Below are positions 1 through 8,237 of a stretch of DNA of 64,000 bases, in pieces. The position numbers and the translations under genes are program-made. The stretch comes from Paenibacillus durus ATCC 35681 (GTDB lineage: Bacteria; Bacillota; Bacilli; Paenibacillales; Paenibacillaceae). The notes below the pieces were generated by a model, which saw only the letters and a list, made by a program, of their open reading frames with translations, searched no databases and was not told the origin of the DNA. Position 1 is the stretch's first letter. Each line of letters opens with the position of its first letter. Location of the stretch: the NCBI RefSeq assembly GCF_000993825.1, contig NZ_CP011114.1, positions 3,658,001 to 3,722,000 of the forward strand. The letters are read 5' to 3'.

Positions 1-51
1 AACTGCTATAGCCACAACAATATAAAAATCAACTGCACTCTCATAGTCCAC
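1..51 (-). CDS. partial CDS, N-terminus only, of an unknown protein in the injection-like operon
   Basis: A GTG codon at 51 is preceded by a GAGGTG ribosome binding site with a 6-base spacer and opens a frame that runs off the left edge. The visible 17 residues (MDYESAVDFYIVVAIAV) end in a hydrophobic run that could begin a membrane segment. It lies 75 bases downstream of the FHA gene on the same strand, so it is probably the next gene of the same operon. Too little is present to name it. Confidence 0.4.
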   Translation of the reverse strand, partial: MDYESAVDFYIVVAIAV

Positions 52-125
52 TCTTTTCACCTCAAAAGTCAGGCTTGCAATTAACGCGCAGCATCCATTT
101 GGCCTTGCGATTTCAGCCCGATGAA

Positions 126-650
126 CTATCCGTTGTTCTCCCACTCAAAGTGCGGCCCGCACAGCGGAATAAAGATAAACTTGCTTCTCCCAAGCTGAAT
201 GACATCGTACGCGTTGAGCTCCACCGGGGAATATACCGCTTCATTGTTATGATAAGCCAGCCCCGATGCATCTCCGGGCAGCAGAAAAAAGTTGCGCTTT
301 TTCGGATCATACACAATGACGGCATGATTCCGGCGCGACACGGTGTTATCCCCGATAATACGGATATGCATTTCTTCTGCACGCCCGATAAAGTTCTTCT
401 CGGCCATAATCCGGTAGTCCTGGCCCATCTGCGCTCCTTCAATGCACACCAGCCAGCCGGTTACCGGATGAATGCCGGTCGTCTCTCCGAGATACGGCAT
501 CGTCTTATCCTCTTCCGCAGGAAGCGGAATTTGGCGCGCAGCCGGATCGCCCGCCGCCGCGGCTTGCACCACTGAGTGGCAATAAGGACATGTATTTCCA
601 TGCTTACGTGTACTGAACATGTGTCCGTTCGGGCATCTTGTCAAACTCAT
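126..650 (-). CDS. FHA-domain protein with N-terminal zinc-ribbon-like motif
   Basis: The 174-aa product starts with a short Cys motif (RCPNGHMF, then TCPYC, residues 5-23) suggesting a small zinc ribbon. A forkhead-associated fold follows, about residues 65-165, with the typical GRAEEMHIRI, then NTVSRRNHAVIVY and final IQLGRSKFIFI strands. FHA domains bind phosphothreonine, so a substrate of the kinase at 7320-8237 is a natural ligand; that is inference. No signal peptide or membrane segment is seen. It is 18 bases downstream of the second FHA gene and appears co-transcribed with it, the DnaJ-domain gene and the tube and sheath genes. FHA proteins (Fha/TagH) are regular parts of type VI secretion gene clusters. 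Confidence 0.8.
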   Translation of the reverse strand: MSLTRCPNGHMFSTRKHGNTCPYCHSVVQAAAAGDPAARQIPLPAEEDKTMPYLGETTGIHPVTGWLVCIEGAQMGQDYRIMAEKNFIGRAEEMHIRIIGDNTVSRRNHAVIVYDPKKRNFFLLPGDASGLAYHNNEAVYSPVELNAYDVIQLGRSKFIFIPLCGPHFEWENNG

Positions 651-668
651 CGTATGTACTCTTCCCCC

Positions 669-1280
669 TTATTTCACCAGCAATCTTGTGTTGGCGATAT
701 ACAGCAGATCCCCTGGGCCTATCCTATGAGGCGTCCCGCTCTCGAGCTTGTCAACAGAGCTTTTCTTCGCCGCGCGCAGTCCGGTTCCGCTTCTGGAATC
801 GACATCCTCCACGTACCATTCGCTGCCTACCCGGTTAAGGACCGCATGCTCCGCGCTGACCAGCGAAGCATACTCGCTGTCCGCCAGATCGATATCCGCC
901 TCCTGGCGGGCATTCGTTTTCCCGATCAGCAGCGAAATCTCTCCTTTGATGTACCACTCTTTGAGCGGATCGCCGTCGTCATCAAGCAGAACAAGCTTGA
1001 TCACCTCCTGTACCGGAGGACGTGCCGCCTGCCGAGGGCGCGGCTTCTTATTCGTCACCGTCTTGCCGGCATCCACAGCTTCAACGCCCCTAGCATCTGT
1101 CGCCCTGCGTCTGCCCAAATACAGATACAGCAACACGCAACACGCAGCCCCTGCAACTACCCCAACCTTCAACGGGTAAAAATCGGGTCTGCGGAACACT
1201 TGTATGGCAGTGGCCGCGATCAATCCCCAAATGATGACGTCCAGTATGAACAGCCAAATGACCCTGACCGATTTGACCAA
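669..1280 (-). CDS. membrane-anchored FHA-domain protein
   Basis: The 203-aa product has two hydrophobic segments at the N-terminus (about residues 6-27 and 38-56), a basic linker with RRR and KKPRPR, and an FHA domain in the C-terminal 115 residues (LLIGKTNAR, SLVSAEHAVLNRV, DVDSRSGTGLRA). The FHA part should face the cytoplasm. The start is a TTG at 1280 with an AGGAGA ribosome binding site 7 bases upstream. It lies 32 bases after the DnaJ gene and 18 before the other FHA gene. A membrane-tethered phosphothreonine reader next to a cytoplasmic one suggests kinase-controlled assembly of a machine at the membrane, but no partner is shown by sequence alone. Confidence 0.75.
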   Translation of the reverse strand: MVKSVRVIWLFILDVIIWGLIAATAIQVFRRPDFYPLKVGVVAGAACCVLLYLYLGRRRATDARGVEAVDAGKTVTNKKPRPRQAARPPVQEVIKLVLLDDDGDPLKEWYIKGEISLLIGKTNARQEADIDLADSEYASLVSAEHAVLNRVGSEWYVEDVDSRSGTGLRAAKKSSVDKLESGTPHRIGPGDLLYIANTRLLVK

Positions 1281-1312
1281 GTCAATCTCTCCTTTGCTCC
1301 GGAAATCCGCTG

Positions 1313-1765
1313 TTATTTGCGGAATCCGAAAAATTGATTGAACAGTCCGTCAGCATTCACTGGGCCTCCGGCTTTCTTGCCGGAAGCTCCCGGCGTGCCC
1401 TTTCCGGTCTTTGGGTGAAAGCCGAAAAACTTCTCAAATTCCTCCGCCATGGCAGCCGGGTCCGGAGCTGCATATGATTTCGGCTTCGCGCTTCCGGTCC
1501 GGCCGCCGCCGCTGCGGGTTCGGCCGCCTTCCGCCTGTTTCCCCGCTTCCTGACCCTGCTCCATCCTGACATCGTATGCCTGCCGCGAGGCTTCGCTGCG
1601 CAGCGTCTCATAGGCCTCATGAATCTGCTTAAACTTCTGCGCCGCTTCCTTGCTTCCCTGATTCGTATCCGGATGATATTTTTTAGCGAGCTTACGGTAA
1701 GCCCGTTTGATTTCTGCTTCCGAAGCATCCCGGCCGACATCGAGCAGTTCATAGTAATCCGCCAT
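1313..1765 (-). CDS. J-domain (DnaJ-like) co-chaperone of the injection-like operon
   Basis: The product is 150 aa when started at the ATG at 1765, which has a GGGGAGAG ribosome binding site; a longer upstream reading exists but lacks one. Residues 3-66 form a J domain with the invariant HPD ([10 protein letters not shown]), which stimulates Hsp70 ATPase. The rest is a Gly/Ser/Lys-rich linker and a short C-terminal piece ([24 protein letters not shown]). There is no zinc-finger or substrate-binding domain as in full DnaJ, so it is a dedicated small co-chaperone, perhaps for assembly or recycling of the sheath. It lies between the tube gene and the FHA genes. Confidence 0.8.
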
Positions 1766-1801
1766 GCCTTGTCTCTCCCCTTCATTTCTTGCGCGGATTA
1801 G

Positions 1802-1843
1802 GAAGCCCGCATTTCCCAATCTGAGGTGGGGAATACGGGCTTC
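1802..1843 (-). promoter_or_regulatory. long hairpin between tube gene and DnaJ gene
   Basis: On the minus strand GAAGCCCGTATTCCC pairs with GGGAAATGCGGGCTTC around an 11-base loop. There is no T tract, so it is not a classical terminator. Placed after the structural tube gene and before low-abundance accessory genes, it could stabilise the upstream mRNA or reduce downstream transcription. Confidence 0.5.
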
Positions 1844-1900
1844 TGTTAAGACAACCCTATCCGCTGCCCTAAGGCATTAGCTGTATAACGGAATGCGAGA

Positions 1901-2326
1901 TTATACCGCGTAGCCGCCGTCGATCTTTGCCAGCTCGGTCTTGTCTTTTTTCTGTTTAATGAAGATCGAGAATGTACCCACTCCTTCGGTGTCGCCGAAG
2001 CTTTCGTTGTAATCTACAACAAAAGCGTTAGGGAAGGAAATTTTGCGCACAACCTGATCGGCCGCGATAACTTCCAGAGTAAGCTTGCGGTAGCAATCCG
2101 CTTTCTCAGCGGGTACAAGCGACCAGAGCGCCAGCTTCATGGTGTCGTCTGCTTTGTCTCCATCCGTTGCGGTAATAATTTTGCCGCTGATACGCAGCGT
2201 CGAGCCTACGTCTGTGGAGCGGGCGTTGGAATCATCCGGTGTGTCTGTGTCATAAACAACCTTTTGAATATTGTCCAAGCCCACCTCAATCGTTTCTTGT
2301 CCTTCAATTGTCAGTCTGAATCCCAT
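1901..2326 (-). CDS. putative tube (Hcp-like) protein of a contractile-injection-like system
   Basis: The product is 141 aa from the ATG at 2326, which has an excellent AAGGAGG site. A longer reading from 2446 overlaps the sheath stop by four bases but lacks such a site, and its extra residues look non-coding. The protein is all-beta in character (GFRLTIEGQETIEVG, STLRISGKIIT, YRKLTLEVIAADQVVRKISFPNAFVVDY, GTFSIFIKQKKD). Its size matches Hcp and phage tail-tube subunits, and it is encoded directly after the sheath-like gene. The tube assignment is inference from size, beta pattern and gene order; related genes may carry unhelpful names in databases. Confidence 0.55.
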   Translation of the reverse strand: MGFRLTIEGQETIEVGLDNIQKVVYDTDTPDDSNARSTDVGSTLRISGKIITATDGDKADDTMKLALWSLVPAEKADCYRKLTLEVIAADQVVRKISFPNAFVVDYNESFGDTEGVGTFSIFIKQKKDKTELAKIDGGYAV

Positions 2327-2442
2327 CTGTGTTTCCTCCTTAGAATAAATTTTGATTTCCGGGAAGCTTTCGCTTGGCCGGAATTTATGTATAAAGGCGA
2401 ATCGGTTAAGAAACGCCTTTAATACCTTTTTCACAGTGCCCA

Positions 2443-4611
2443 TCACGCTTTCACAGGGCTGGTTCCCTTGGTAATCATGACTTCAAGGTTCTTGACATTG
2501 CCGTTGAAGACCAGATCGATATGGCACAGGTTGTTCTTCTCATCAATCACATAACTGATGTCATCCCCGTCCTGAATGATCGAGTTGATATATCCTCTTG
2601 TGCCGACCCACTTGCTCTTTTGGCTGCTCGGGTTGTTACTGAAGAAACGGACGATATTCTCATGCTTGAAATCCCCGGTCTGGTAGCGGAGAATCCGCTC
2701 GATATACGTGCTGACCAGTGTCTTGTAGATAGAATCGAATCCGTCCTCCGATAACGCCATACTTCTGGCTTTGTACACCGTAATCCGGCGGATGTCTTTA
2801 TCCTGCAGCTGCGCATTTTCCGATGAGAACACAAACCCGAAGTTTTTCCGGTTGATCGCATCCTTGATGCTGTTCGTAAAGCCTGTAATCTCTTTGGCCA
2901 TTGTCGTTACCGTGCGCAGACTGTTGTCTCCCGCTTCAATGTCGAAGCGCGCTCCCGGAAAGTCCTTGTTGACCGTTTTGAACGTTTCCCGCAGATACTC
3001 CGGACATTGATATGCGGCAGCGAGTCCTGCGGCTACATAAGCAGCTCCGACATACACGCCTTCAATCCACAATTTCAGAATGTCTTCCTTCTCCTTGGAC
3101 AGTTCCACGCCATTCTCCGTTTGCAGCATCTTGCTGTCAATGATTACGCCCGATTTCTCTTTCGGAATGATGGTGAAATTCGGGACACAAGGAATGGCAA
3201 ATTCGCTGTATTCCTTGCGGACCAGCGGGGCGCATTTGTCGATATACTTATCGATGCCCGCTGTCGCCATGCTGTTAAAGGTCGTATCTTCCCCGGATTC
3301 GAAATTGAAGAAGATTTGAATTTTGTAATCCTTGACCACCTGAAGCAGCATGGACAGTGATTCCATCGTGTACCCGTCATTCTTCACAACCTTCTCATTG
3401 CCTTTAAAGCGTTCGCGCGATACCTTGACTTTGCCTGCAGTTTCCAGTTCAACCGATGGCACAATGCCGAACCAGATCGTGTCGCTGAAATCATTCTTCG
3501 AGTTGACGGTGTTAAGGAACGTCTCCAGACGCGGGATGTTGCTGCTCTTCACGAGCATATCGAGCTTGCTGTTGGCAATCAGCATCGTCGGCAGCATACC
3601 TTTGTTCTTGGTGGCGTACTGGTCAAAGAACAGTTTGACGCCAATAATTTTCTCGACAAGCGGCTTAACGGTCTTAACAAAATCATCCTTGGCATTCTTA
3701 TAAAATTCCAGGTAGGTATTGTAGTTCTGTACCTCCAGCTCCGTGTTCACTTCCGCATGCACGGCAGGGAGCGGTACGAAGGTACGGACAACCAAATCCT
3801 TCACGTAATTGGATGGGCTCTCCGTAATGGAGTCATAGTCCTCCCCAAAGACGGCCGATAAATCGCCTGCCCCGTTCTCATCCAGCAGTACCAGCTCTGT
3901 GCTGTCGCTTTTCGGCGCTTCAATAATCTTGAGCTCGCCGCCCTCGCCGATGGTCAGCATGCCGATCTGAACGGCTTCTCCCGCATTCTCTTCCTGTGCT
4001 CCGCCAAGCAGAAGCCGGGTCTTGATATCCTCGATCGCCAGCGGCAGCATGGCCATAACATTGTTGTAGTTTCGGCTCGCTTCCTCGAACATTGCGTTCA
4101 GCTTATCGCCCATATCGAGCTTTTTCGGGTCGCCTTCATCCAGCTGATCATATTGCCCGTACAGATAATGAATTTCTTTGCGCACCTGGCGGATATCATC
4201 CATCACTTTTTTGGGCGAAATCATATCAAGCAGGTTCTCGAATTTAAAATCGACGTTCGTGATGCCCTGGCTGCGTTTCGTATCAATCAGGGTAAACAGC
4301 ATTTTCAGAAAATCATTGTTCTGATCCACCCGGATCTCCGAAATCATCTCGTCGGGAATGCCATCCGGCTTGCGCAGCGTATACATCACCTTCTGGTTGG
4401 CCGCGTTAAAAAACGAGTATACCGTCGGGGTAAACTTGTCCAGAAATTCATCGAAGCTGCGGACCAGCAGCTGCTGGTTAATCTCTTTAATGCGGTCGTC
4501 GCTTAAGCTGTCAATCCCTTTGACATCACCTACGATGGTAATCAGATCAAGCTTTTCCGGATTAATCTCCTCAAAAAGAATGGTGCGGTTCGTTTGATTG
4601 ATAATCTCCAT
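2443..4611 (-). CDS. putative contractile sheath (TssBC-like) protein
   Basis: The 722-aa product has no signal peptide or membrane segment. The last 170 residues resemble sheath C-terminal domains in order: a Gly/Ala-rich helix (YVGAAYVAAGLAAAYQ, about 525-540), then DIRRITVYKARSMALSEDG, a long helix (STYIERILRYQTGDF), then alternating strands ending HIDLVFNGNVKNLEVMI. The length is near the sum of TssB (about 170) and TssC (about 490), so it may be a fusion or a one-piece sheath; this is inference. The middle has an acidic segment (GAGDLSAVFGEDYDSITESP). Its own start has only a weak ribosome binding site, but a short ORF with a very strong one overlaps it by 41 bases. The tube gene follows at 116 bases. 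Confidence 0.5.
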   Translation of the reverse strand: MEIINQTNRTILFEEINPEKLDLITIVGDVKGIDSLSDDRIKEINQQLLVRSFDEFLDKFTPTVYSFFNAANQKVMYTLRKPDGIPDEMISEIRVDQNNDFLKMLFTLIDTKRSQGITNVDFKFENLLDMISPKKVMDDIRQVRKEIHYLYGQYDQLDEGDPKKLDMGDKLNAMFEEASRNYNNVMAMLPLAIEDIKTRLLLGGAQEENAGEAVQIGMLTIGEGGELKIIEAPKSDSTELVLLDENGAGDLSAVFGEDYDSITESPSNYVKDLVVRTFVPLPAVHAEVNTELEVQNYNTYLEFYKNAKDDFVKTVKPLVEKIIGVKLFFDQYATKNKGMLPTMLIANSKLDMLVKSSNIPRLETFLNTVNSKNDFSDTIWFGIVPSVELETAGKVKVSRERFKGNEKVVKNDGYTMESLSMLLQVVKDYKIQIFFNFESGEDTTFNSMATAGIDKYIDKCAPLVRKEYSEFAIPCVPNFTIIPKEKSGVIIDSKMLQTENGVELSKEKEDILKLWIEGVYVGAAYVAAGLAAAYQCPEYLRETFKTVNKDFPGARFDIEAGDNSLRTVTTMAKEITGFTNSIKDAINRKNFGFVFSSENAQLQDKDIRRITVYKARSMALSEDGFDSIYKTLVSTYIERILRYQTGDFKHENIVRFFSNNPSSQKSKWVGTRGYINSIIQDGDDISYVIDEKNNLCHIDLVFNGNVKNLEVMITKGTSPVKA

Positions 4612-4696
4612 TCATGTTCGGCAGCTCAATTGCCAAAATATTGTCGATTCGCCATCCGCTGTACGAATGCCAAATACCCAGGACCTTGTCACCCAT
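4571..4696 (-). CDS. small upstream ORF (41 aa) overlapping the sheath gene start
   Basis: The ATG at 4696 has a GGAGGAGG ribosome binding site with 7-base spacing, the strongest in the locus. The ORF encodes 41 residues (starts MGDKVLGIWHSYSGWRIDN) and ends 41 bases inside the sheath reading frame. The sheath gene itself has a poor site, so translation of this ORF may open or couple the sheath start. The peptide could also be a real small component. No family is recognised. Confidence 0.5.
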   Translation of the reverse strand: MGDKVLGIWHSYSGWRIDNILAIELPNMNGDYQSNEPHHSF

Positions 4697-4756
4697 TTCG
4701 CTGCCTCCTCCTCCCTCAGTGCATATGTATGGTCGTCCGTTAGACTCAAGGAACAT

Positions 4757-5139
4757 ACATTCCCATGTCTCGCGGTTCTTCCTGAATTTCTACAAAAGCC
4801 GATTGTATTCCAGATAATTCCTCAATCTCACACCTAATATTAACGACGGCCTATTATTTTTGTCAATTTAAGTCATTCATATAAAAAACAGGTCCTATAG
4901 ACTCATAGTTCCGTGAAATTACGAAAATTTCTATGCAAATAGACCTTATTACAAAATTCTCTATTCATTCCAAAATGCTGCCGTCCGATAAAGTAATGTT
5001 AGATTTTAGGGTATTGTTCATATTCAGGAATGGGTTCCATCTTGATCCGCTAAACGGTCCGAAGGTTCGGGAATGGTTCGAAAAAGCAAGGGGCTCAGGC
5101 ACATAGCGGTAAATCCAGTCAAAATTCAGGGAGGAGATT
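4757..5139. other. divergent intergenic region of the injection-like locus
   Basis: This AT-rich 383-bp spacer separates the minus-strand sheath operon from the plus-strand VWA gene. It carries the minus-strand promoter described separately and a VWA ribosome binding site (GGGAGGAG) just before 5140. GGTCCGAAGGTTCGGG-like sequence near 5057-5080 has repeated GGTTCG words. No further gene was found. Confidence 0.6.
4837..4866 (-). promoter_or_regulatory. candidate sigma-A promoter of the sheath/tube operon
   Basis: On the minus strand TTGACA (4866-4861) and TAATAT (4842-4837) are separated by 18 bases. Transcription would start near 4830, giving a leader of about 130 bases before the small ORF at 4696. 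Confidence 0.5.
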
Positions 5140-7254
5140 ATGAAGAACCTAAAGAAATACAGGACTAAGGCTGTCGTGACTTTTGTACTATTTTTAATTT
5201 TTGTTCAAACTTTTTTTTCTGCCGGTTTGACCGGATCCGCGGAGGCTGCTTCCTCGGCCCTTCCTGCCGGATATGACGTTGTGTTTGTTATGGATACCAG
5301 CTATTCAATGCGAGAATCGGACAAGGAAGGAATCGCCACTGAAGTCGTGAAAATGTTCATGGACATGAGCGACGCCAGCCGCACCAAGGTCGGATTTGTC
5401 GCTTACAATCACCAGATTGTCGCCGCTAGTCCCCTCGCCTCCATTGCAGTGGCGGCCCGGCGGACGGGAATTCAAACGGACATTTCCAGCCTGAAACGGT
5501 CCGGATATACGGATCTGGGCCTCGGTCTCCGCAAAGGAGCGGATCTGCTTGCTTCCGGGACGGGAGAAGGAAGAAAGCCGTTTCTGATTCTGCTCTCCGA
5601 TGGCGAGACGGACTTCGGTCCTTTTTCCAGCTCACGGACCAAAGCGGATTCCGACCGGGATGTGGCCTCTGTAATTAAATCGGCCAAGGCCAGAAACTAT
5701 CCCGTCTATACGATCGGGCTTAATCACAACGGAGCCGTAAACCGGAAGGAGCTGGAGCAAATTGCCGGGGAAACCGGCGGGAGCTCATATATTACGAGCA
5801 GCGCGGATGATCTTCCGGAAATCGTCAACCGTATTTTCGCTAGTCAGATTCGTTCCCAGCTCATGCAGACCGCCGGCATCACCGCGACTGGTTCACTCCA
5901 AGACGTAATGGTGACCATTCCCGATTCCAGCATGGAGGAAGCGAATCTCGTCCTGCTCTCCGAGCATCGGCTGAAAGAGGCGCAGCTGTACTATAATTCG
6001 GACAATATCCGAAGATATGAATCGAACCGGTACGTCATTCTGAAAATCGGCCATCCGGCAGCCGGGTCGCTGAAGCTGAAGCTGCGGGGACAGGCGGGCG
6101 ATCTGATCAAAGTCAATTTGCTTGGAAGCTACGCGCTGGAAGTAGACAGCAAGATGACTGGCGGAGGGGCGAGCGGGAAGAATGCCGGAAACGGAGCGTC
6201 CCGGCTTGCGGGGGGAGAAACCCTAAAAGGGCAGGAGACCGCTTTTGAAGCGCGGCTTGTGACCGGCGGCGGGCAGCCGCTCCAAAATGAAGATGTCTAT
6301 ACCTCGCTTAAAGCAGAGCTTGTTGTCACTTCGGCGAACGGTCAGAGCAAGAAGCAGATTCCAATGGTCTATAAGTCCGGAAGCTTCCGTGCGAAGTACA
6401 GCTTCCCGCAGACGGGAAAATATACATGGCAGGTTAAAATGCACGGCGCGGCTTTCTACCGGAATGGAATAGTAAATAACGTCCATGCAGTGAACACCGG
6501 ACCTGAGGCGACGGGGAATTGGAAGCTCCATGCCATCCGCGAGGACGGGGAAATCCGGCTGAATCTGGACGATTATTTTCACGATGCCAACAATGATCCG
6601 CTGACCTTCTCCGCAGCAGATGAGAAAGCTTTCGATCTTGGCCGATATAAATGGGAAGGACATACATTGGTATTGTCTTCTCTGCGCACGGGAGAGGCGG
6701 GCCTAAAACTGACTGCGGCGGACCCGCAAGGGGAGACGGCGAGCGCTGTCCTGCTTCTGACCGTGGAATCCAGATATACCGTGCTAAAATGGTCATTGGG
6801 CGGGGCCCTGCTGGCGATTGCCGCCGGTGTGCTGCTATATTTCTGCTTTAGACCAAGGCCAGATTTCACCGGCAAGCTTGAAGGCTTGTTCCTCGCGACG
6901 GCCAGCGGCAACGAGGTTCCGGTCAAGTCATGGCCGCTTACTTCCTTCCCTGGGCGCAAGGTTACACTAAATGAGCTGTTCCACTCGCTTGCTGTGCATG
7001 AGCCCCTGCCGGAAGCGGAGCGGATCGTCTTCACGCCAGGTAAAAACGGGATGCTGACCGTCAAGCACGATACGCGCTGCGCGGTCCAGCACGGCAAGAC
7101 GCCGGTCGCGAGAAATCAAAAGGCAGTCATGTCCTACAATGAGAAACTGTACATTACATTCGAGGATGGAATAACGGAAATTGAGCTTCGCTACAAGGCG
7201 ATTAAGCCGGTAACGAACATTTACACCGGCGGAGATTCGAACCGGGCAGGATAA
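5140..7254 (+). CDS. secreted/membrane von Willebrand factor A protein with cytoplasmic C-terminal domain
   Basis: The 704-aa product has a signal peptide (about 1-37) and a VWA domain (about 44-235) with a complete metal-ion-dependent adhesion site: DTSYS at 52-56, a TDLGLG threonine loop and LLSDGETD. Middle residues (about 240-540) look like extracellular beta domains, including a cadherin-like stretch (LNLDDYFHDANNDPLTF). One membrane segment lies near 549-570, and the C-terminal 130 residues should be cytoplasmic and beta-rich, possibly FHA-like. This would join an outside ligand-binding head to an inside reader. It is divergent from the sheath operon and convergent with the kinase, which suggests a sensor or anchor role for the locus. 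The signal-peptide and topology calls come from hydrophobicity read by eye. Confidence 0.8.
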   Translation: MKNLKKYRTKAVVTFVLFLIFVQTFFSAGLTGSAEAASSALPAGYDVVFVMDTSYSMRESDKEGIATEVVKMFMDMSDASRTKVGFVAYNHQIVAASPLASIAVAARRTGIQTDISSLKRSGYTDLGLGLRKGADLLASGTGEGRKPFLILLSDGETDFGPFSSSRTKADSDRDVASVIKSAKARNYPVYTIGLNHNGAVNRKELEQIAGETGGSSYITSSADDLPEIVNRIFASQIRSQLMQTAGITATGSLQDVMVTIPDSSMEEANLVLLSEHRLKEAQLYYNSDNIRRYESNRYVILKIGHPAAGSLKLKLRGQAGDLIKVNLLGSYALEVDSKMTGGGASGKNAGNGASRLAGGETLKGQETAFEARLVTGGGQPLQNEDVYTSLKAELVVTSANGQSKKQIPMVYKSGSFRAKYSFPQTGKYTWQVKMHGAAFYRNGIVNNVHAVNTGPEATGNWKLHAIREDGEIRLNLDDYFHDANNDPLTFSAADEKAFDLGRYKWEGHTLVLSSLRTGEAGLKLTAADPQGETASAVLLLTVESRYTVLKWSLGGALLAIAAGVLLYFCFRPRPDFTGKLEGLFLATASGNEVPVKSWPLTSFPGRKVTLNELFHSLAVHEPLPEAERIVFTPGKNGMLTVKHDTRCAVQHGKTPVARNQKAVMSYNEKLYITFEDGITEIELRYKAIKPVTNIYTGGDSNRAG

Positions 7255-7293
7255 CCGGAGAAGAAGCGGAGCTCCGCTGCTCGGGTACAATGG

Positions 7294-7343
7294 CGCCTGA
7301 AAAGCGTCAGCCCTGAAGGTTATCCTCCAGAGCGCTGACGCTT
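7294..7343. terminator. bidirectional hairpin terminator between VWA and kinase genes
   Basis: AAGCGTCAGC and GCTGACGCTT form a 10-bp stem. Minus-strand transcripts read a short T run after it (GCTTTTCAGG). The kinase stop codon lies in the loop region. Confidence 0.5.
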
Positions 7344-8237
7344 CCCTCTGTGCAGCCAATATTCCGCCTGCAGAGCAGCCTTAAACCAGCGGAATGAACG
7401 GACCCGCCGCTGATGCTTCACAGCAAGAGCCCGGCGAATGACAAAGGACAGCAGCGGGGAAGAAGCGCTGCCGCTGAGCGCAACTGGCTGCAGATTGTCC
7501 CGGAACAACCGCTTCGGTACGTCTGGGGGAGGGGTCCCGTTACAGCAATAGTACACCGTGGCGGCCAAACTATACATGTCGGAGACCGGTCCCTGACAGG
7601 AGCGGCTCGAGTAGAACTCCAGCGGCGAATAGCCGGCGGTTGTAAAGATCGGATGCGCTTTGCCGTCATATCTTACAGCCGATCCAAAATCCAGAAGCTT
7701 AACCTCTCCGCCTTCTCCAACCATAATATTTCCCGGTTTAATATCCCGGTGGATAAAACCATTTTTGTGAATATACTTCAGCGCGTCGATTAGCGGCAGC
7801 AGCGTGCTGCGGAGGAATGCTGCATCAACCGGGGTGTTCCGGTCCTTGATCAGCTTGTCCAGGGTTTGACCTTCGCAGTACTCCATGACAAGATAGGCCG
7901 TACCGTTCTCTTCAAAATGGTCCACATAACCTACAATCCCCGGATGCCTCAGTTCCTTCAAAATCTCCGCTTCCTGCAAAAAGGAATCCATCAGCTCCCG
8001 GTACTTGCCTGCCAGCGAGTGCGAGCGGCACTTCACCGCCTGTTTGTCAGTGGTCCGTACAGCCAGCAGCGCCGGAAAAAATTCCTTAACAACCACCTTC
8101 AAGGCCGACTCGCCTTGGATGCTCCGGGCCTGGTAGACAATCGACAGCTCGCTGCGGCACAGCGGCTTCCGAATCTGATAGGTGCCGCGAAGTTTCGTGT
8201 TCCGAGACAGATTGTCATCACCCTTAACGCTGTTCAT
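7320..8237 (-). CDS. Ser/Thr protein kinase (PpkA-like) of the injection-like locus
   Basis: The 305-aa product is a eukaryotic-type kinase: catalytic Lys in VVKEFFPALLAVR (K51), HRDIKPGN with Asp165, and DFGSA at 183-187, followed by SPLEFY and SDMYSLAATVYY. The KE-F/Y-P-x-x-LAVR pattern around the catalytic Lys is shared with kinases of type VI secretion clusters (IKEYLP...R), known from that family. There is no membrane segment or PASTA repeat, so it is cytoplasmic. The basic C-terminal tail (HRGKRQRSGG) is short. The start has an AGGAGG site 7 bases away. It probably phosphorylates a threonine read by the two FHA proteins at 126-1280. Confidence 0.85.
   Translation of the reverse strand: MNSVKGDDNLSRNTKLRGTYQIRKPLCRSELSIVYQARSIQGESALKVVVKEFFPALLAVRTTDKQAVKCRSHSLAGKYRELMDSFLQEAEILKELRHPGIVGYVDHFEENGTAYLVMEYCEGQTLDKLIKDRNTPVDAAFLRSTLLPLIDALKYIHKNGFIHRDIKPGNIMVGEGGEVKLLDFGSAVRYDGKAHPIFTTAGYSPLEFYSSRSCQGPVSDMYSLAATVYYCCNGTPPPDVPKRLFRDNLQPVALSGSASSPLLSFVIRRALAVKHQRRVRSFRWFKAALQAEYWLHRGKRQRSGG

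Follow-up and report, generated by a model that had tools for sequence, protein, structure and literature searches.

What kind of machine, if any, is encoded by the run of minus-strand genes that begins at the left end of the analysed stretch of Paenibacillus durus ATCC 35681? The stretch, here called the window, comprises 64,000 nucleotides of contig NZ_CP011114.1 (C1:3658001-3722000, in a genome consisting of a single contig of 5,575,484 bases), and an earlier note made from the letters alone had read its positions 1-8237 as part of a contractile-injection-like locus, an interpretation that proved largely right for the locus as a whole. Cell-bound contractile weapons are mostly Gram-negative, with recent archaeal and Streptomyces cases in the accessible parts of the literature, and the launcher of the DUF4280/VgrG spikes of Firmicutes has been left open (PMC5349215; accessible part of PMC8651086). 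We consider it likely, with good confidence, that the run is the injector locus of a cell-bound antibacterial contractile injection system of Gram-positive Bacillota, resembling the type VI secretion system (T6SS) and gated by kinase/phosphatase/FHA signalling, and the locus is a candidate for the launcher suspected, in the accessible part of PMC8651086, behind the DUF4280 and VgrG spikes of Firmicutes.

The run comprises 18 open reading frames (ORFs), starts within window positions 1-8237 and extends about 13 kb to the left of the window, with intergenic gaps of -19 to 132 bases. The left flank was taken as C1:3642001-3662000 (L003), where a position minus 16000 gives the window position. All ORFs of the earlier note were located, and their domains (two FHA, DnaJ, VWA and Pkinase) were confirmed by Pfam.

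2443..4611, minus strand: probable one-piece contractile sheath (TssB+TssC-like), 722 aa, first gene of the run, by profile ranking and context
1901..2326, minus strand: Hcp-like tube protein, 141 aa, from an internal ATG of a 181-aa frame (1901-2446, minus)
1313..1768, minus strand: J-domain protein with intact HPD motif (DnaJ, Pfam E 1.6e-26)
669..1280, minus strand: FHA1, two predicted membrane segments (8-26 and 37-55) and an FHA domain (Pfam E 1.8e-6)
126..650, minus strand: FHA2, zinc-ribbon-like N-terminus and an FHA domain (Pfam E 1.6e-6)
L003:15185-16144, minus strand, the N-terminal end being window 1..144: PP2C phosphatase, 319 aa, membrane segment 39-57 (PP2C_2 E 3.6e-17)
left of the window after PP2C, minus strand: PP2C-TPR, 601 aa, membrane segment 258-276, weak TPR matches
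left of the window after PP2C-TPR, minus strand: a 435-aa protein and then a 231-aa protein, neither with credible matches
L003:8596-11247, minus strand: Hsp70-like ATPase, 883 aa (Hsp70, Pfam E 0.0028, below cut-off)
between the Hsp70-like gene and VgrG, minus strand: 266-aa and 200-aa proteins
L003:6659-7063 and L003:5655-6662, minus strand: VgrG, split over two frames that overlap (PF04717 E 3.4e-4, slightly under the cut-off)
between VgrG and the DUF4280 gene, minus strand: 221-aa and 175-aa proteins
L003:4070-4468, minus strand: DUF4280 PAAR-like tip protein (PF14107, E 6e-25)
L003:3311-4048, minus strand: VgrG2 stub, 245 aa (weak Phage_GPD, E 1.2e-4)
5140..7254, plus strand: VWA protein, 704 aa, accessory, with hydrophobic segment 12-30, VWA domain 46-230 (E 1.4e-20) and hydrophobic segment 548-566
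7320..8237, minus strand: Hanks-type Ser/Thr kinase, 305 aa (Pkinase E 1.2e-37), containing KEFFPALLAVR

Regarding the tube, the structure model and fold search of the 141-aa protein gave the Hcp/tail-tube fold that is also found in T6SS; the tube assignment of the earlier note thus holds, and its description as all-beta does not strictly, the model being beta-rich with a central helix. The sole Pfam match is TssD/Hcp (PF17642), below cut-off in the window protein (E 1e-3) and matched by 61 of the 74 members of the tube alignment at E up to 1, and the best PDB sequence match with a diverse profile was 6bdc, Hcp1 of F. johnsoniae (E 0.0096). The hhalign probability against Proteobacterial Hcp was 0.75%, behind two phage P2 references (6.3% and 2.6%), despite the good fold match. 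A second tube-like protein, possibly a minor tube or initiator, occurs in some distant relatives (L112:2926-3240; L108:15409-16155); the one in L108, a 241-aa frame counted from its first ATG, is flanked by the PP2C-TPR gene and the Hsp70 gene. The spike genes sought to the left of position 1 were found as VgrG and DUF4280 (PF04717 and PF14107), the VgrG and PAAR-type pairing of T6SS, and were confirmed in relatives.

The 722-aa protein is probably a one-piece TssBC-type sheath, a judgement drawn largely from context together with weak profile evidence. It is 98% identical to a Paenibacillus durus protein and 97% to one of P. forsythiae, and 2602 proteins were related to it at E<=0.001 (7997 candidates scored). 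No credible match was found in Pfam (best E 0.25) or PHROGs, and an alignment of four distant members gave only unrelated weak matches in Pfam. In an hhalign comparison with 129 templates, of which 20 were reference alignments and 109 were decoys, first rank went to the joined TssB-TssC reference and second to TssB; residues 437-685 aligned with positions 395-618 of the joined reference (E 0.0087, probability 4.6%) and residues 25-158 with TssB 40-134 (E 0.02). Four T6SS sheath entries (VipB rows) appeared in VIA at one compatible register, with weak Z within the noise level. Of the 89 members aligned, 84-89 keep the C-terminal pattern VYKARS, which presumably resembles that of phage and T6SS sheaths. 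A parvovirus NS1 match among PDB profiles (within residues 570-631; E 0.003 to 0.001, and E 0.02 in another run) was rejected as chance, along with weaker rows, since it covers few residues and involves a protein of unrelated function. Public names are misleading here, tube homologues often being called 'membrane-associated protease 1' and sheath homologues 'transcriptional regulator'.

Conservation was counted in the best 80 of 355 relatives (GTDB contigs, profile scan, 546 stretches), some of them incomplete loci, from Paenibacillus, Brevibacillus, Cohnella, Aneurinibacillus, Lysinibacillus, Sporosarcina, Solibacillus and one other member of the Bacillales. Sheath and tube were present in all 80, the J-protein, FHA1, FHA2, PP2C and PP2C-TPR in 79 each, the 435-aa and 231-aa proteins in 78, the Hsp70-like protein in 77, the kinase in 72, the VWA protein, which is thus not universal, in 58, and the 266-aa protein in 43, many loci ending before it. 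Ten genes keep the same order and strand in all 77 loci that reach the Hsp70-like gene, the other three being incomplete. In the sheath tree (87 rows), sequences of one genus mostly cluster together; Brevibacillus is split, and the deep branches are unreliable.

Homologues were also found in Clostridium, Tepidibacter, Natronospora and others, and presence is sporadic: 13 of 398 genomes of the phylum by profile, 6 of 299 by single sequence and 11 out of 100 among nearer relatives. Retained in the most distant cluster (L101/L102) are the sheath, tube, VgrG (PF04717 E 2.8e-10), 231-aa protein, Hsp70-like protein (SrfB family, E 4e-7), 266-aa protein and a kinase match, with a 418-aa protein at the position of the 435-aa protein; a DUF4280 protein of L101 also matches the AHH nuclease family (E 1.5e-4) at 22.2 bits, the cut-off being 22.3. 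Sheath, tube and Hsp70 are retained in L108 together with the FHA, PP2C and J-protein genes, in L103 the block of 435-aa, 231-aa, Hsp70-like and 266-aa genes precedes kinase, sheath and tube, in L105 and L106 the remaining genes are separated from sheath and tube, and L109 is rearranged. In L113 (genome G380) several separate ORFs near the sheath start like actin-fold/Hsp70 ATPases by eye, and the sheath frame has one stop.

A further view is that the locus is a domesticated prophage remnant devoid of injector function. All known contractile systems share phage ancestry, which counts for that view, and it is nevertheless scarcely credible: none of the 136 pattern-matched stretches of viral contigs encodes a relative, the catalytic motifs are conserved, a Pfam scan of the 18 ORFs gave no family for capsid, terminase, tape measure or lysis, and the two Phage_sheath_1 proteins of the genome belong to separate loci. 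Those two loci (C1:3720001-3740000, L233; C1:4185001-4205000, L234) look by eye like prophage-type contractile tails, and one of them lies about 7.6 kb to the right of the window's end.

Regarding control, the signalling parts look functional as judged from their motifs. The kinase keeps its lysine in 77 of 77 members and HRD and DFG in 78-79 of 79, the metal-site motifs of PP2C (D-G, GDS, SDG and DN) are kept in 84-86 of 86, and FHA2 retains all its binding residues (GR, S and N-H, each 82/82) and a zinc-ribbon-like C-x-N-G-H...C-P-Y-C in 80-81 of 81; the HPD motif of the J-protein is invariant (87/87). PP2C-TPR is PP2C-like by eye in its N-terminal part, its GDS motif reading GN.R in most of the family, and has no PP2C match in Pfam. 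In the PpkA-PppA-Fha pathway, phosphorylation licenses assembly, and by analogy it would do so here: proteins of these three kinds are present, with intact sites in the kinase, PP2C and FHA2, FHA1 lacking the usual arginine. The intact sites agree with the phosphothreonine control proposed in the earlier note, whose two FHA proteins are confirmed; the zinc-ribbon-like N-terminus of FHA2 and the two hydrophobic segments of FHA1 can be added to their description. Membrane segments are predicted in FHA1, PP2C, PP2C-TPR and VWA; these hydrophobic segments agree with the suggested membrane link and make the four proteins putative docking candidates.

The spikes extend well beyond the main cluster. 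What comes after DUF4280 in relatives is usually another VgrG (VgrG2), of 900-1200 aa, and small ORFs. Among seven VgrG2 proteins scanned, the C-termini matched Endonuclea_NS_2 (E 1e-38), AHH in two (1e-21 and 1e-19) and Colicin-DNase/WHH (1e-14), with RHS repeats in one at the end of a locus, a YwqJ-deaminase match below cut-off (0.003) and one HopBF1-kinase-like NCBIfam match far below cut-off. An ORF adjoining one relative's VgrG2 encodes an immunity protein of the SUKH type (E 1.3e-19); orphan CdiA_C and Endonuclea_NS_2 cassettes account for two further ORFs scanned. The genome of P. durus itself has 11 places with PF04717, eight of them above cut-off, and 11 DUF4280 matches, two apparently in one frame, with cassettes besides the main cluster at about 0.09, 0.19, 2.10, 2.73, 4.14 and 5.47-5.50 Mb. 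Their usual gene order is VgrG1, 221-like, 175-like, DUF4280, VgrG2. Of the seven VgrG2 proteins scanned in these cassettes, five had a recognisable C-terminus (HNH, NlpC/P60, RHS, EndoU and Tox-HDC) and two had none; at 5.49 Mb there is also an orphan cassette with Colicin-DNase. All three 175-like proteins scanned matched Imm11, one of them above cut-off (E 2.8e-6) and the others below it, and two of three 221-like proteins contain pentapeptide repeats. By sequence, the toxin-like C-termini of VgrG and the immunity-like neighbours may be secreted effectors and their immunity proteins.

Full-length copies of VgrG1 and VgrG2 are present at 5.47-5.50 Mb (97.9-99.7% identical over matching parts), and the spike segment of the main cluster shares 98.7-99.2% DNA identity with parts of that array, which might be a reservoir of tips and toxins for recombination. 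The array (C1:5466001-5502000; L226/L227) adjoins rRNA and tRNA genes, Rfam giving LSU, SSU, two 5S and eight tRNAs in L227:14500-20000.

A cytoplasmic contractile system acting on its own cell, through stress-triggered death or differentiation as in Streptomyces, has a Gram-positive precedent (accessible parts of PMC10066040 and PMC12237407). Here, however, the toxin-like VgrG C-termini, the SUKH gene beside one of them in a relative and the Imm11-like cassette proteins point to rivals as targets, and the sporadic presence (11 of 100 relatives) also speaks against a system of that kind, which is very unlikely.

The spikes are tied to the injector by co-occurrence as well. Among 398 genomes, 13 had the sheath, 19 had DUF4280 and 12 had both, DUF4280 being found in 12 of the 13 sheath genomes against 7 of 385 others (Fisher p 2e-17); among 100 genomes the figures were 11, 18 and 11, or 11/11 against 7/89 (Fisher p 2e-10). 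These p values are uncorrected for relatedness, the P. durus genome is in both samples, and part of the co-occurrence arises because DUF4280 sits in the operon of many. The lone sheath genome without a DUF4280 match (G380) shows the start of a DUF4280-like protein by eye. In 11 loci of the 14 genomes with DUF4280 only, no match to other proteins of the system was found at E<=1e-3; several of these loci (L235-L245) look by eye like those of extracellular contractile injection systems (eCIS), L240 having the start of a phage-like sheath. Since DUF4280 without this sheath sits among other genes, it is probably used by two or more contractile systems of Bacillota.

Whether the locus is itself an eCIS or tailocin, its particles made in the cytoplasm and freed by lysis like Afp/PVC, can be judged from the same data. 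The contractile tube/sheath logic and some Gram-positive hosts are common to eCIS, Streptomyces systems and this locus, fold matches of the tube include the PVC, AFP and Algoriphagus tubes, and eCIS-associated toxins are known from Firmicutes, one of them a Paenibacillus (accessible part of PMC8213781). Against this, none of the eCIS core families Phage_sheath_1, Baseplate_J and DUF4255 was found by Pfam among the 18 ORFs, FHA1, PP2C, PP2C-TPR and VWA carry membrane segments, and the DUF4280 loci that lack this sheath have different neighbours. Phospho-signalling genes further set the locus apart from eCIS and the Streptomyces system, kinase/phosphatase/FHA control being typical of cell-bound T6SS, as do its toxin-VgrG fusions, never seen for PVC systems according to the accessible part of PMC3482391. 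An eCIS or tailocin is thus unlikely.

How closely the proposed injector is related to T6SS depends on which parts are compared. With the Proteobacterial T6SS (TssA-M), for which E. coli W (L116) and the plasmids L117-L127 served as references, it shares the Hcp-type tube, VgrG with GPD and OB domains, a PAAR-like tip, C-terminal toxin-like domains on VgrG, vgrG islands away from the injector and kinase/PP2C/FHA genes. It differs in its single sheath protein without a TssC match in Pfam, in having an Hsp70-like ATPase and a J-protein with no ClpV seen in the operon, and in its single-membrane host, as deduced from the genus. Pfam gave no match anywhere in the genome to TssG (PF06996, of which an unrecognisable homologue is possible), TssC/VipB (PF05943, so that a two-protein TssB/TssC sheath was not found) or TssM/IcmF (PF06761; TssL and TssJ families were not searched in the genome), the E. 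coli controls being positive for all three. The machine would therefore be T6SS-like in its working and yet shows no match to the TssC-type sheath, TssG or TssM, in keeping with its separation from classical Gram-negative T6SS in the earlier note. The comparison with the Bacteroidota T6SS covered the tube, whose closest matches are PF17642, a family linked to Bacteroidota, and the F. johnsoniae Hcp1 structure. Francisella is diderm, and its IglA and IglB are the counterparts of TssB and TssC, a two-part sheath that differs from the single sheath protein here. The Francisella-type T6SS does share DUF4280 as its PAAR-like tip, in the form of IglG (PMC5349215). In the accessible part of PMC8651086, PAAR_H2 (DUF4280) genes of Firmicutes adjoin Phage_GPD VgrGs, with no eCIS or T6SS genes around; the same pairing is seen here, compared as DUF4280 and not as subtype H2, with the difference that an injector operon is now tied to such spikes by synteny and co-occurrence.

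Regarding recycling, the earlier note had envisaged a DnaJ in place of ClpV. No ClpV-like gene was indeed seen in the operon, and the TssH (ClpV) profile had no credible match among 19 of 20 locus families (the PP2C family and the rest of the genome were not searched), but the J-protein is accompanied by an Hsp70-like ATPase to the left of the window, in which the phosphate-2 motif is invariant and the phosphate-1 motif mostly so in 83 members and which matches DnaK in PDB at E 0.006. It may thus be the Hsp70-like/J-protein pair that serves in ClpV's place. The baseplate had been placed, if present, to the left of the window, where the conserved 435-, 231- and 266-aa proteins are candidates for it, without any baseplate family being recognised. 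They showed no profile similarity to TssE, TssF or TssK by a method that also missed accepted homologues. The N-terminus of the 266-aa protein may be reminiscent of TssK. A pentatricopeptide repeat match of the 231-aa family (PDB profile, E 0.001) was not believed, and a 'DcrB-like' label for the 200-aa protein before VgrG was unsupported and dropped.

On these grounds the locus might also be a divergent true T6SS of a new subtype whose TssF, TssG, TssK, TssM and TssL are unrecognisable by sequence, a proposal that overlaps with the T6SS-like injector preferred here and differs in kinship, not in working. In its favour are the presence of Hcp, VgrG, a PAAR-like protein, FHA and kinase/phosphatase, the first rank of TssBC among profile matches of the sheath, and TssD as the sole Pfam match of the tube; against it stand the missing TssG, TssC and TssM matches, the lack of a ClpV-like gene in the operon and the failure of the 435-, 231- and 266-aa proteins to match any T6SS reference. 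It deserves serious consideration, if on balance it is doubtful.

Several observations weigh against a phospho-gated, T6SS-like injector. The AlphaFold model of the 722-aa protein was poor (pLDDT 50), and Foldseek searches of PDB and BFVD with that model gave no significant match, for which reasons support for the sheath is only moderate; the one-piece sheath of the earlier note accordingly keeps the TssBC profile rank and the context in its favour, with the model and fold searches against it. The hhalign probability for a sheath is also low (4.6%; E 0.0087). In the same set-up, four of five accepted homologue pairs stayed below 0.5% (TssBC with P2 FI, TssC with P2 FI, Hcp with P2 FII and TssG with P2 I) and VgrG with P2 D reached 12%, the pairs being taken as homologous and P2 FII, whose record says 'head closure', being used as the tube. 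These shallow alignments are therefore mostly insensitive, and because accepted pairs scored lower, the low sheath probability neither proves nor excludes homology. No baseplate family was found for the 435-, 231- and 266-aa proteins by hhalign against the 20 references, by Pfam with two distant members each or by PDB profiles, and no gp25/TssE-like protein was recognised. In 82 of 88 members FHA1 carries a lysine where FHA domains usually have an arginine, its histidine being kept in 88 of 88. The VgrG1 gene of the main cluster is split over two overlapping frames in this strain, and the VgrG2 there is a stub of 245 aa. The J-protein, FHA and PP2C were not recognised in L101/L102 (phmmer E<=1e-3), so that the control module is not universal, nor were the 435-, 231- and 266-aa genes within 20 kb in L108 at the same threshold; machine core and control module can thus part company.

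If the injector works as proposed, the 722-aa protein would polymerise as a one-piece sheath around the tube, on a baseplate that would consist of the 435-, 231- and 266-aa proteins. FHA1, the PP2C proteins and, in some genera, VWA would anchor this baseplate at the single membrane. Phosphorylation read by the FHA proteins would license assembly, and PP2C would reset it. On contraction, VgrG, DUF4280 and an effector would be pushed across the cell wall and into an adjacent bacterium, and the Hsp70/J pair would assemble or recycle the sheath in ClpV's place. Whether this amounts to a separate cell-anchored class of contractile secretion native to single-membrane bacteria, with a fused sheath, its own baseplate set, FHA/PP2C docking instead of TssJLM, an Hsp70/J-protein pair instead of the AAA+ ClpV and genome-wide interchangeable toxin-tipped spike cassettes, is nearly an even call, leaning slightly against. 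No description of this injector was found in the literature searched, in which preprints and subscription papers are thinly covered, so that an earlier description is possible. The accessible part of PMC3482391 has firmicutes in its T6SS row and does not name this locus there; the 'Type VI' of Paenibacillus in PMC12381145 is, in the accessible part of that paper, a Tc toxin unrelated to the locus.

Thus, the locus offers a concrete, testable launcher candidate in soil bacteria, including Paenibacillus, Brevibacillus, Lysinibacillus and clostridia, and proteins now annotated as 'hypothetical', 'transcriptional regulator' or 'membrane-associated protease 1' may be parts of the machine. It also poses the mechanistic question of how a contractile machine would be anchored in one membrane, fire through a thick wall and be recycled without ClpV.

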